A program made the position numbers and the translations under genes. Shown here piece by piece: positions 31,978 to 35,604 of a DNA stretch of 64,000 bases. Below the pieces are notes generated by a model, which ran no database searches, was not told where the DNA came from, and saw only the letters and a program-made list of their open reading frames with translations. This stretch comes from Parahaliea maris (GTDB lineage: Bacteria; Pseudomonadota; Gammaproteobacteria; Pseudomonadales; Halieaceae): contig NZ_VRZA01000002.1 of assembly GCF_008064665.1 (NCBI RefSeq), positions 434,001 through 498,000 on the forward strand, written 5' to 3'. Numbering within the stretch: position 1 is the stretch's first letter; every line of letters starts with the position of its first letter.

Positions 31978-33378
31978 ATGGCCATTTCAACCTTCGACCT
32001 GTTCAAAATCGGTATCGGACCGTCCAGTTCCCACACCGTGGGCCCCATGAATGCGGCCCGCCAGTTTGCCCGGGGCCTGGTCGACGCGGGCAAGCTCACA
32101 GCCTGCAGCCGGGTCACGGCAGAACTTTTCGGTTCCCTCGGGGCTACGGGCGCCGGGCACGGTTCGCCCAAGGCGGTGATTCTCGGGCTGGAAGGGGAGG
32201 CGCCCGAATCCGTGCTGGTGGAGAGCATTCCCGAGCGTGTCGCCGCGGTGCGCGAAAACAGCAAGCTGAAGCTGATGGGCGAACACGAGATCGAATTCAG
32301 TTACCGCAACGACCTGATCATGCACCGCAGCGAATCGCTGCCCTATCACGCCAACGGCATGCGCTTCAGCGCCTTCAATGCGAGTGGGGAAAGTCTCGAT
32401 GTCCGTGTGTATTACTCGGTTGGCGGCGGCTTCGTGGTCGATGAAAAAACGGCCAAGGGCGATGTGCTGGTGGAAGACCCCACCGCGCTGACCTACCCCT
32501 TTACCAGCGCCGCCGAATTACTCGCCCAGTGTCGCGAGCACGGCCTGTCCATCAGCGGGCTGATGCTGGCCAATGAAAAGGCCTGGCGCAGCGAATCTGA
32601 AATCAGGGAGGGGTTGCTCGCTATCTGGCGGGTGATGGATGACTGCATTCGCGCGGGCGCTTCCACCGAAGGCATCATGCCCGGCGGCCTCAAGGTCAAG
32701 CGCCGTGCCGCCCAGTTGTATCGGCAGCTCAAGAGTTCGTCCGGTTCGCTGGGCGACGATACCCTGACCACCATGGACTGGGTGACCCTCTATGCCCTGG
32801 CCGTGAACGAGGAAAATGCAGCGGGCGGGCGCATTGTCACCGCGCCCACCAATGGCGCCGCCGGCATCATTCCCGCCGTACTCAAGTATTACCTGACCCA
32901 CTGCAAGGGGGCCAGCGAGGACGACGTACCGCGCTTCCTGCTCACCGCCGCCGCGATCGGCATCCTGTACAAGATCAACGCCTCGATCTCGGGCGCCGAG
33001 GTCGGCTGCCAGGGAGAGGTCGGCTCGGCCTGCTCGATGGCGGCGGGCGCGCTGGCGGACGCCCTGGGCGGCACACCGGCACAGGTGGAAAACGCCGCCG
33101 AAATTGCCATGGAGCACAACCTGGGTTTGACCTGCGACCCGATCGGCGGCCTGGTGCAGGTGCCATGCATCGAGCGCAATGCCATGGCGGCCATCAAGGC
33201 CATCAGCGCCGCCCGGATGGCGCTGCGGGGATCAGGGGAACACTATGTCTCCCTCGACCAGGTCATCAAGACCATGCGCGATACCGGCCGCGACATGCAG
33301 GAGAAGTACAAGGAGACCGCCCGCGGCGGATTGGCCGTGAATGTGCTGGAGGTACCGGTCAGTATTATCGAGTGTTAG
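31978..33378 (+). CDS. sdaA: L-serine dehydratase, iron-sulfur type
   Basis: This 4Fe-4S enzyme deaminates L-serine to pyruvate. The 466-residue single-chain protein joins the beta domain (N-terminal [17 protein letters not shown], residues 12-28) and the alpha domain ([50 protein letters not shown]) as in E. coli SdaA. The C-terminal cysteines including that in SIIEC, and those in [11 protein letters not shown] and CDPIGG, fit the cluster ligands. The start ATG is preceded by a possible TACAAT -10 box at about 31941. Confidence 0.96.
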
Positions 33379-33409
33379 GTGCGATTGCAGAAAAGTGCTC
33401 TGTACAGTG

Positions 33410-33438
33410 TTGACATACCCCCGGGGGCTCACTAAAAT
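33410..33438 (+). promoter_or_regulatory. Strong promoter of tRNA-Ala
   Basis: TTGACA at 33410-33415, a 17-base spacer and TAAAAT at 33433-33438: almost the sigma-70 consensus. The spacer contains CCCCCGGGGG, and a GC-rich discriminator (GCGCACC) follows the -10 box, the type seen in stringently controlled stable-RNA promoters. It lies 66 bases before the tRNA. Confidence 0.85.
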
Positions 33439-33503
33439 GCGCACCTCTTCGTTGAGAGAGGCAGGACTAAAAGCCTTCCATTTCAACGAGTTACCAGTTT
33501 ACT

Positions 33504-33579
33504 GGGGCTATAGCTCAGCTGGGAGAGCGCAACACTGGCAGTGTTGAGGTCAGCGGTTCGATCCCGCTTAGCTCCACCA
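33504..33579 (+). tRNA. tRNA-Ala (anticodon GGC)
   Basis: A 76-base cloverleaf: acceptor stem GGGGCTA/TAGCTCC, D arm GCTCAGCTGGGAGAGC, anticodon stem CAACA/TGTTG with loop CTGGCAG (anticodon GGC, reading GCC and GCT codons), variable loop, T arm AGCGG-TTCGATC-CCGCT, and encoded CCA end. The acceptor stem has one G-T pair. A consensus promoter lies before it and a terminator after it, and its 3' end is repeated three more times downstream. Confidence 0.97.
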
Positions 33580-33585
33580 TTTAAA

Positions 33586-33618
33586 ACCTCCGATCCGAAA
33601 GGGTCGGAGGTTTTTTTT
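33586..33618 (+). terminator. Rho-independent terminator of tRNA-Ala
   Basis: Stem CCTCCGATCC/GGGTCGGAGG with a GAAA tetraloop and eight T residues, seven bases after the tRNA CCA end. Similar hairpins with GAAA loops recur in the repeats that follow. Confidence 0.93.
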
Positions 33619-33620
33619 AT

Positions 33621-33749
33621 GGTCCGCCGGTCGAACCGCTGACCATGTTAGCGCCGGATGGCCGGCCCGTTCCCTGTCGGACGCGACCCCGGCCGTTAGC
33701 TCCACCAAACGAAAAACCCTCGAACCGAAAGGTCCGGGGGTTTTTTTAT
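33621..33749 (+). repeat. tRNA-tail repeat unit 1 (129 bp)
   Basis: Begins GGTCCGCCGGTCGAACCGCT, whose reverse complement largely matches the tRNA-Ala T arm (GGTCAGCGGTTCGA), then has a degenerate T-arm-like stretch, the last 11 bases of the tRNA TAGCTCCACCA at 33697-33707, and a GAAA-loop terminator with seven T at 33716-33747. The architecture recalls the RtT repeats that follow tRNA-Tyr in E. coli tyrT, each of which carries a tRNA 3' end. Confidence 0.9.
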
Positions 33750-33863
33750 GGTCCGCCGGTCGAACCGCTGACCATGTCAGCGCCGGGTGGTCGGCCCGTC
33801 CGATCCCGCTTAGCTCCACCAAACGAAAAACCCTCGAATCGAAAGACTCGGGGGTTTTTTTAT
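33750..33863 (+). repeat. tRNA-tail repeat unit 2 (114 bp)
   Basis: Same start as unit 1. It is 15 bases shorter because the degenerate part is replaced by an exact copy of the last 21 bases of the tRNA, CGATCCCGCTTAGCTCC plus ACCA, at 33801-33821. A terminator hairpin with GAAA loop and seven T follows at 33830-33861. Confidence 0.9.
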
Positions 33864-33972
33864 GGTCCGCCGGTCGAACCGCTGACCTTGTCAGCGCCGG
33901 GAGGCCGGCCCGTTCGACGTCGGGCGCGACCCCGGCCGTTAGCTCCACCAAACGAAAACCTCTCCAATCCGT
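33864..33972 (+). repeat. tRNA-tail repeat unit 3, partial
   Basis: Same start as units 1 and 2, with a unit-1-like central part, and the tRNA tail TAGCTCCACCA at 33940-33950. After AAACGAAAACCTC the similarity decays: CCAATCCG resembles the left arm of the original tRNA terminator, but no right arm or T run follows. This marks the end of the array. Confidence 0.85.
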
Positions 33973-34513
33973 TCATTACTCCAGCCGGGCATTGGCTAAG
34001 GTGCCTGTGGCTTACTGTCGGTTCAGTCTTCTTCACTTCAGGCGACTCGGGTATTGGCATGATGGCATCGAAACGAATGCGCCCGGTGATTTCAAGTTGG
34101 AGTAACTCGATTGCGATCAAGGTGTGCACGAGCAGGAACAACACCGCGGTAACTATCTTCAATGAACTGTTAAGGCGGCGTAAAAATATCGATGGATTCG
34201 CGGTGTTTTCGCTTCGCGCCAATCTGCGCGTCCCGTGTCATGTCTCTGTTCTTTTGACATGAATACAAAACGGGGGGAAGCACTCTGTGCCGTGATCGAA
34301 AGTTTGCAAACAGAAAACGTGCTGGCGCATGACGCTTAAGCATAAGTGTGACGCCAACAGAGGCCATCCGGAATCTGCGGAAACGGTGGGACAGGTCGAA
34401 GATTTCTATAAAAAGCGTAATTGTTCCAAAAAAAATCTACAGAACATTTTCTAGCGAAGATGATATGAAATCGTATCTTGCGAATGTGCTACTGGCGTTT
34501 GAAGAGTAACGAA

Positions 34514-34532: not shown

Positions 34533-34658
34533 AAAACCCCTTTATTTATAGTGTTATACGGGTTTTTCGAGTGATTGGGTATGCGTTGCGCGGTTTGGGT
34601 GCGGGCTGTGGCGTGCAGCTGATATGCCGAAAAACCCGTTTATATACAGTGTATTACG
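34533..34658. repeat. Direct and inverted repeats in the AlgP-like gene leader
   Basis: Segments 34533-34560 and 34631-34658 are direct repeats identical at 23 of 28 positions, 98 bases apart. In addition ACGGGTTTTTCG at 34558-34569 is the exact inverse of CGAAAAACCCGT at 34628-34639, and the second copy contains ATACAGTGTAT, a small palindrome. The inverted pair could form a hairpin with a 58-base loop. The AT-rich setting suggests a promoter and control region. Confidence 0.6.
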
Positions 34659-34740
34659 CTATTGGATTGTATTGTGTACTTTATTGATTGTTGTTATTTT
34701 GATCAGGCGTCACCCGTACACAACCGTGGAGAATTGCGTA

Positions 34741-35604
34741 ATGGCAACCGCTAAGAAAAAGGCAACTGCGAAGACAAAGGCAAAAGCCCGCAAGGCACCA
34801 GCGAAAAAAGCTGCTGCCAAAAAAGCACCACGCAGGAAAGCTGCAAGCAAGCCTGCAGTCACTCCGGCACTGAAACGCGCAAGCGAAGCGCTGAACAAGC
34901 TCGAAAAAGGACTGGTGGCAGAACAAGCCAAACTGGCAGATGCGCGCAAGCGCGTAGCTGCTGCAAAGGCGAAAGCCGACAAGCGTATGTCAAAAGGTGC
35001 AGCAACCGCTTCATCGAAAGCGTCAGCCCGGGTCAAGGCAGTGCGTGAACGTATTGCCGCGGCCAAGAAGCGTGTTTTTGAATTGGCTGAAGATGCCAAG
35101 GTAAAAGCAGCGCAGATGGCGGCAAAAGAAAAGCTGATGGCGAAGAAAGCGGAACTGGCGGCGAAAGCCGAGGCAGACAAGGCCAAGGCACTGGCCAAGC
35201 ACGCTTCTGCCTGGGCCAAGGCACGAGCCAAGGCTGACGCCAAGAAACTCTCAGCACTTGAGAAAAAACTGGAGAGTCAGGTTAAATCCGCCGAGAAGAA
35301 AGCGGCTGCCAAGTTGAAAGCTGCTGCCAAGAAGGCCTCAGCCAAACCGAAGCGCAAAAAGGCAGCCGCCAAGAAGAAGGCCGCAGTCAAAAAGGCTGTA
35401 GTGAAAAAGGCCGCCGTCAAAAAAGCCGCGCCCAAGCGCAAAGCGGCAGCCAGGAAGAAAGCCGCAGTGAAAAAGGCCCCGGCCAAAAAAGCTGTAGCGA
35501 AGAAGGCCGCAGTCAAGAAAGCCGCCGTCAAAAAAGCCGCGCCCAAGCGTAAAGCGGCAGCCAAGCGCAAAGTGGCTCCGAAAAAGGCCGCTGCGAAGTC
35601 CTGA
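34741..35604 (+). CDS. Histone H1-like/AlgP-type Lys-Ala-rich DNA-binding protein
   Basis: A 287-residue protein made mostly of Lys, Ala, Arg and Val. The N-terminus (ATAKKKATAKTKAKARK) and the last 80 residues (repeats of KKAAVKKAAPKRKAA) are basic; the centre (about 50-200) is a predicted coiled-coil region with LNKLEKGLVAEQAKLADARK. This matches AlgP (AlgR3) of Pseudomonas, an H1-like protein with C-terminal KPAA-type repeats. ATG at 34741 with GTGGAG upstream is the start; the upstream frame to 34624 encodes a hydrophobic stretch unlike the family. Nucleoid compaction or gene regulation is likely. Repeats may vary in number between strains. A terminator follows. Confidence 0.85.
   Translation: MATAKKKATAKTKAKARKAPAKKAAAKKAPRRKAASKPAVTPALKRASEALNKLEKGLVAEQAKLADARKRVAAAKAKADKRMSKGAATASSKASARVKAVRERIAAAKKRVFELAEDAKVKAAQMAAKEKLMAKKAELAAKAEADKAKALAKHASAWAKARAKADAKKLSALEKKLESQVKSAEKKAAAKLKAAAKKASAKPKRKKAAAKKKAAVKKAVVKKAAVKKAAPKRKAAARKKAAVKKAPAKKAVAKKAAVKKAAVKKAAPKRKAAAKRKVAPKKAAAKS

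Follow-up and report, generated by a model that had tools for sequence, protein, structure and literature searches.

Knowledge of the tRNA-linked repeats (TLRs) of Escherichia coli goes back to 1978 (Egan and Landy, 1978; Rudd, 1999; both as cited in PMC8144298). According to that source there are 22 of them at ten loci, each with a terminal 18–19 bp that repeat the 3' end of the tRNA or rRNA gene before it, and as of 2021 they are described there as having no known function. The stringent-response role of RtT, on which a first-pass annotation of the locus studied here had drawn, is reported in the same source to have been retracted later (PMC8144298). The RNAs rrA, rrB and rrF are described as read-through small RNAs behind E. 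coli 5S genes, in which TLRs lie between two terminators; their transcription and processing have been shown, they bind Hfq and CsrA, and recognition of the copied end by RNase E was suggested for them by the authors (PMC8144298). 3'ETS-leuZ pairs with the small RNAs RyhB and RybB (PMC8144298), and rtT is related to BIME-type elements of Enterobacteria, as stated in PMC2965389. Among the papers listed by our literature search there was none on TLRs outside Enterobacterales, with the exception of an 'RtT sRNA' reported in Thioalkalivibrio (PMC8092127).

In the window, as we call the whole stretch of 64,000 nucleotides of Parahaliea maris DNA that was analysed, we find three TLRs in tandem behind tRNA-Ala(GGC), and we read this array, with our confidence evenly poised, as a read-through RNA module that would carry a copied tRNA-end processing signal. 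It is a TLR variant in a lineage for which we found no TLR report in the literature, and both its anatomy and its recurrence, after several tRNA genes and in several genera, were observed directly. The tRNA gene (anticodon GGC; ARAGORN; 63.5 bits with the Rfam tRNA model) occupies 33504–33579 of the + strand, on which the promoter-like site and all parts of the array also lie. Upstream of it, at 33410–33438, is a promoter-like site (TTGACA-17-TAAAAT; 11 of 12 matches), and as this is the sole such site in 33350–34150, the array interior contains none. Unit 1 (33580–33707) consists of a terminator, an inverse T arm, an interrupted T arm, a second hairpin module and the tRNA 3' end TTAGCTCCACCA; unit 2 (33708–33821) of a terminator copy, an inverse T arm, an interrupted T arm and 21 exact tRNA 3' bases; and unit 3 (33822–33950) of a terminator copy, followed by the same parts as in unit 1. 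The array ends in the truncated start of a further terminator copy, without a hairpin (33951–33970). Our model R1 matches 33622–33676 (66.1 bits), 33751–33806 (72.7 bits) and 33865–33917 (71.5 bits) in the three units, scores that hold by construction because these units are training members.

The first-pass annotation, which was made from the letters alone, had proposed this succession of tRNA-Ala(GGC), terminator and tandem units carrying the tRNA 3' end and an inverse T arm, and it was borne out, as were the positions that it gave for TAGCTCCACCA (33697, 33811 and 33940, one per unit) and the 21 exact bases of unit 2. Its unit sizes of 129, 114 and about 109 follow another phasing; counted from one CCA end to the next (33707, 33821 and 33950), units 1 to 3 measure 128, 114 and 129 nt, and the direct repeats at 33609–33724, 33738–33853 and 33852–33967 are spaced by 129 and 114. 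Unit 2 matches the tRNA 3' end over 24 bases with one mismatch, and in units 1 and 3 the exact copy is 12 bases only. The inverse of GGTCAGCGGTTCGA (33548–33561) is exact in all three units, at 33631–33644, 33760–33773 and, over 15 rather than 14 nt, 33874–33888 (100% identity in each). The unit sequence is unique in its own genome, where the next match elsewhere has an E-value of 0.255.

The five ORFs adjoining the array were classed by Pfam as GltX-like, serine dehydratase, without family, MobA-like and TsaD family, and there is no integrase among these five. The serine dehydratase gene lies upstream of tRNA-Ala(GGC); its protein shares 90% identity with the Parahaliea mediterranea one, and Halieaceae account for many of the matches next in rank. 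Downstream of the array, the ORF at 34624–35604 encodes a lysine/alanine-rich protein of 326 aa with KKAAAKK repeats and no Pfam family at E<=0.001. A coding array was also considered: both strands are open across it, as spacings of 129 and 114, each divisible by 3, would allow. In relatives, however, unit lengths include 113 and 104, and on these lengths the candidate was dropped.

The intrinsic terminator of tRNA-Ala(GGC) lies at 33583–33618 (stem 33583–33614, 14 pairs, then a T run; -23.7 kcal/mol) and was the only one that a simple terminator scan called on the + strand. The claim that the repeats also carry terminators stands in so far as the copies at 33713–33747 (unit 2; 83% identical to the first terminator) and 33827–33861 (unit 3; 80%) fold, with -20.8 and -19.4 kcal/mol, but the scan missed both on the + strand, because their stems are mismatched. 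After the third CCA there is no terminator-like hairpin (fold -1.3 kcal/mol). Folding of the whole segment, one of the checks that had been suggested, gave a z-score of -8.1 against shuffles, for which the inverted copies alone could account.

In unit 2 the terminator copy is followed by the inverse T arm TCGAACCGCTGACC, which a loop of 3 nt separates from the T-stem 5' strand GTCAGCG; next come the hairpin CCGGGTGGTCGG, which interrupts the T arm, and the sequence from T loop to CCA. In units 1 and 3 the second hairpin module sits on the T-loop side and replaces most of that side. A common plan of inverse T arm, hairpin-interrupted T arm and CCA end, as read from the letters, is shared by the units, and by several E. 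coli TLRs. At E. coli tyrT/tyrV, lysQ, lysV and proK, too, the T arm of the repeats is interrupted and an inverse copy of it is present, so that the parallel with tyrT noted earlier not only holds but extends further. At lysQ, lysV and proK the order is identical to that of the array: tRNA, terminator-like hairpin with T run, inverse T arm, direct T arm, hairpins and CCA end. Our survey of E. coli K-12 covered 15 stretches with 54 tRNA genes and recognized 13 units by their copied tail, not all 22. These units are 98–178 nt long, and in seven of the 13 the T arm or acceptor end of the tRNA has an inverse match of at least 8 nt; the 13-nt match of the lysQ and lysV units was reached in 0 of 300 shuffles, and those of the other five of the seven in 0–12 of 300. 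Since the other six have inverse matches of 5–6 nt, which is chance level, and since rrB has no inverse copy longer than 5 nt, the plan is common and not universal among TLRs.

Measured against the E. coli TLRs, the array has their hallmark, in that its units end as the upstream tRNA 3' end does, with a copy of 21 bases in unit 2 and of 12 in units 1 and 3 as compared with 18–19; it also lies directly behind a tRNA gene, with three units in 33580–33950 as compared with one to five per locus. It differs from them in lineage and tRNAs, in unit length (114–129 as against 98–178 nt), in the T arm, which is broken between T stem and T loop and not behind TTCGA, and in the inverse arm, which spans the 5' T strand, so that the 3' end of the unit itself lacks a partner. 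The tRNA family as such, which the first-pass annotation had singled out as different, is nothing special, as E. coli TLRs already follow Lys, Arg, Pro and Tyr tRNA genes and a 5S gene. Like the array, rrB interrupts its copied 5S end (GAGTAGG, then hairpins, then AACTGCCAGGCAT); of the three 5S-linked RNAs it was rrB that was compared for the inverse copy, which it lacks. With 3'ETS-leuZ the array would share a trailer RNA from a tRNA transcript, which is the feature of leuZ (PMC8144298), but no tail copy was found behind leuZ.

The array and RtT RNA (Rfam RF00391, tyrT/tyrV) both have tandem repeats behind a tRNA, 3'-end copies, an inverse copy and an interrupted T arm. In RtT, however, GGGGAAGGAT can pair with RtT's own ATCCTTCCCC, whereas the array has no such stem, and the longest complement of its three units to the last 20 tRNA bases is at most 5 nt. 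The proposed covariance search turned out against an RtT assignment: among 16 matches of the array at E<=10 there was no RtT, and only tRNA reached its gathering score (the RtT cut-off is 45 bits), while the E. coli locus, as positive control, gave four matches of 132.9–137.5 bits. As the Rfam RtT model does not match it, we class the array as a TLR variant and not as RtT. In the order, the RtT model matched 52 of 390 genomes at E<=0.001 and 26 of 390 above its cut-off, including three genomes of the window's own family (G005, G013 and G048); the genome of the array itself (G000) gave no match. Of these loci, ten were fetched; at seven of them an Arg, Tyr, Lys or Ser tRNA is followed by units, with an inverse copy of at least 8 nt at six of the seven. 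At least two TLR plans therefore coexist in the order, that of the array and the RtT plan, in which the inverse copy is able to pair with its own 3' end and the T arm is broken behind TTCGA.

Copies of a tRNA gene's own 3' end lie behind it in 6 of 41 tRNA contexts in G000 (one of the 41 is without downstream sequence), nine copies in all: three for Ala, two for Gly and one each for Phe, Gln, Leu(CAG) and Leu(GAG), the last of them degenerate. The Phe unit follows the plan of the array (inverse TGCCGACAC, direct GTGTCG, hairpin, GTTCGATTC...CCA) and the Gln unit an RtT-like plan; in the Leu and Gly copies no inverse match to their own tRNA reaches 10 nt.

The search of related genomes that had been suggested as a check was positive. 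Two copies of AGCTCCACCA 85–115 nt apart occur in 13 of 140 genomes of the family, in 10 of 28 genera, at 18 places, of which G004:C16 is without a tRNA and, in G171, the unit is preceded by no more than a half-tRNA. In G028 and G016 a 108-nt unit without terminator follows tRNA-Ala(TGC) inside the 16S-23S spacer of an rRNA operon, and the spacer minus these 108 nt aligns with the unit-free spacer of G013. Units with an inverse T arm also follow tRNA-Pro(GGG) in G008, G011, G091, which belongs to another family of the same order, and G017, whose tRNA is truncated at the edge of the contig. In G177, units with a hairpin follow tRNA-Met genes that we take to be initiator-like; they have no inverse T-arm match of 8 nt or more, and R1 matches them at positions 16–47 only. 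One of three tandem tRNA-Met genes there (L229, G177:C4, 1720–1810, minus strand) contains a hairpin inserted into its own T arm, which looks like a conversion by the adjacent units. Searching the order with R1 yielded units in G091 (tRNA-Pro) and G177 (tRNA-Met) and none in G401 (tRNA-Phe); within the family, two of nine weak R1 matches adjoin tRNA-Pro and seven are at loci without a tRNA. The 15 genomes with strong R1 matches are those on which R1 was trained, so that they give no independent support. In another order, G561 has tRNA-Ala(GGC) followed by four units, the first of 105 nt and the other three of 104 nt, and by a fifth that has decayed, with an inverse arm in every unit (altered in two) and interrupting hairpins whose shape is kept despite unrelated sequences. 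It is one of 19 class-wide pattern matches, in 18 of 369 genomes, and lies behind a tRNA with real units; the remaining 18 have ends unlike tRNA tails. Viral contigs gave no match to the pattern GGAWGGCCNNCCCGNTCGATCC.

What is new here, then, is that such units occur after tRNA-Ala in the family, after Phe, Gln, Leu and Gly tRNAs in the genome itself, after tRNA-Pro in relatives and after tRNA-Ala in one genome of another order, that they have a plan in common, and that their inverse arm follows the local tRNA. The recurrence of this plan behind several Pseudomonadales tRNAs, twice within rRNA operons, and in one genome from a second order provides comparative material on TLR conservation, and the rule of an interrupted T arm with an inverse T arm that tracks the local tRNA is directly testable at lysV, lysQ and proK of E. 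coli K-12.

The inverse arm does track the sequence of its local tRNA. Among 23 hand-listed units, compared with 11 distinct T arms and chosen with a lean towards units that have an inverse arm, the own tRNA gave the longest match in 14, tied in eight and lost in one (G022), being best or tied in 22 of 23; permuted tRNAs reached the observed match sum in 0 of 5000 trials. Inverse T-arm matches of at least 11 nt lie downstream of 15 tRNAs in 160 contexts, a set enriched for loci with units in which one of the 15 (tRNA-Glu, L175) reflects an adjacent tRNA, and upstream of none, the longest upstream match being 10; the downstream matches exceed chance.

In a set of 18 unit cores from 15 genomes the hairpin preserves pairs despite base changes: columns 37/46 are C-G in 13, A-U in four and unpaired in one, and columns 36/47 are C-G in ten, A-U in one, G-C in one and unpaired in six; in the stem of inverse and direct strands, columns 20/32 are U-A in nine, A-U in three, C-G in one, G-C in one and unpaired in four. 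The covariation score of the unit structure was 0.144 as against 0.076 in shuffled sets (0 of 500), but pairs changed on both sides were at chance (4 vs 3.7; 286 of 500), and, as a test of the RNA strand, G-U pairs were not favoured over A-C (8 vs 14). These results support a kept hairpin shape but not selection acting on RNA as such.

In the read-through reading that we prefer, each unit would be an edited copy of the tRNA-Ala 3' region. We infer that, in a small fraction of transcription rounds, RNA polymerase would run on past the first terminator and produce a structured trailer, in which the copied tRNA 3' ends would offer extra cutting points to 3'-processing enzymes (RNase E, exonucleases). 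The terminator copies would stop read-through, so that a small RNA would be made in step with tRNA-Ala, and recombination between the direct repeats could add, remove and homogenize copies. Several points speak against this: the first terminator looks strong (-23.7 kcal/mol), the terminator copies went uncalled on the + strand, unit 3 has no terminator behind it, the units are patchily present (13/140), the Rfam RtT model does not match, and there is neither a G-U excess nor more than the chance number of both-sides changes.

Since selection on RNA is not supported, a passive origin is a serious rival, and one that we regard as tentatively possible. The tRNA 3' end and its terminator would have been tandemly duplicated, fold-back template switching would have produced the inverse arms and hairpins, and recombination would keep the copies alike, leaving an array that is functionless or supplies spare terminators only. 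The same patchy distribution and the same lack of a G-U excess are as expected of this process, as is the copying of the terminator together with the unit at several loci; unit lengths, terminators and inner modules, judged by eye, vary across genera and are alike inside one array. It fits less well with an inverse arm that agrees with the local tRNA behind Ala, Pro and Phe genes, and does so again in another order, with units in the rRNA spacer that have no terminator to be duplicated along with them, or with a hairpin of the shape GNNGG-ANGG-CCNNCCCG that recurs, with compensating changes, behind Ala and Pro tRNAs in different genera.

The matching of arm and tRNA would also suit a cis-acting role, which we think improbable, in which the inverse arm would capture the T stem of the upstream tRNA, so that pre-tRNA that had missed the terminator would be misfolded and discarded, or tRNA yield would be tuned. 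Pairing of the inverse copies with the tRNA or its precursor had been suggested at the outset, and ensemble folding of tRNA plus first unit agrees, as a prediction at equilibrium: the T-stem 5' strand pairs with the first unit with a probability of 0.77–1.00 at 15 of 16 non-E. coli loci and of 0.52 at the remaining one, as compared with means of 0.00–0.23 for shuffled units (30 each), in which the real value was reached in 0–2 of 30. In G053 and G004, moreover, it is the inverse arm, and not the direct strand of the unit itself, that follows the tRNA. Against such capture, the calculation ignores that the tRNA would fold first, before the inverse arm is made; E. coli lysQ and proK give only 0.01 and 0.02, in contrast to 0.80 for tyrV; in G022 it is the direct strand that follows the tRNA and the inverse arm that does not; and four of 37 other tRNAs of G000, a comparison set with a mean of 0.16 that still contains the Leu and Gly tRNAs with units, also exceed 0.75. 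A broader version, and a long shot, is that TLRs might be one structure-defined, tRNA-matched RNA class of gammaproteobacteria, built from an inverse T arm and a hairpin-interrupted 3'-end copy of the host tRNA, whose inverse arm would disable or reroute read-through pre-tRNA via its T stem; if this were true, such tRNA genes would bear their own sequence-tracking antisense tail.

That the units might be scars of integrative elements using the tRNA 3' end as attachment site is suggested by half-tRNA copies, which in several relatives lie about 1 to 111 kb from tRNA-Ala(GGC) on the same contig, so that this gene looks like an integration hotspot, and likewise for tRNA-Pro in G000, G004 and, on separate contigs, G031. 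The half copies of tRNA-Ala begin at the anticodon arm and extend as far as CCA, and those of tRNA-Pro begin at the T loop, whereas the array units start at the T arm and hold the inverse arm and hairpin. Because neither of these occurs on the element side of the half-tRNA borders, and because in G001, G020 and G038 the unit stands behind the half-tRNA (a putative attR), on the host side, we rejected att scars as a very unlikely origin. In G000:C11:331295-338921 (L388), about 7.5 kb are bounded by tRNA-Pro(GGG) on one side and a 25-nt repeat of its 3' end on the other, the layout expected of an integrative element with T-loop attachment, and in L148 (G001) about 19 kb lie between tRNA-Ala and a half-tRNA that is followed by a partly decayed array. 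A transposon-end model was without support; in G021 a degenerate half-tRNA with a hairpin lies 2.5 kb behind the tRNA, and the three ORFs between them have no Pfam family.

Scarcely credible, finally, is a small mobile palindrome that would prefer TTCGA targets and move among tRNA tails and transposase genes: similar hairpins do interrupt Ala and Pro tails, and GGATGGCCGCCCCGATCGA, identical to the interrupting hairpin of some units, also lies in a Y2_Tnp transposase gene (L215, G173:C445) and in two look-alike stretches (L300, G173:C443; L285, G029:C162), with a similar one in an rve-type transposase gene of G005, but no mobilizing enzyme was identified, the hairpin of G561 keeps its shape with unrelated sequences, and the motif is near background outside the tails (31 matches in 140 genomes, 16 of the 31 in units; reversed control, 10), which also led us to reject the hairpin as a genome-wide repeat.

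Other repeats were met beside those described above. A third type of unit follows tRNA-Pro(GGG) and is alike in two genera (L370 in G025; L374 in G010); its hairpin is CAAGC..GCTTG, and any inverse T arm is shorter than 7 nt. After tRNA-Met, L065 (Pseudohongiella OX638341.1) has another repeat plan with three 131-nt units, and L392 (G065) has at least two units of 216 nt that also copy part of the anticodon arm. In a congener, two contigs (G002:C17:1-431 and G002:C18:1-384) start inside an array, so that the assembly cuts its copy number short, and the inner sequence is there a near-perfect palindrome.
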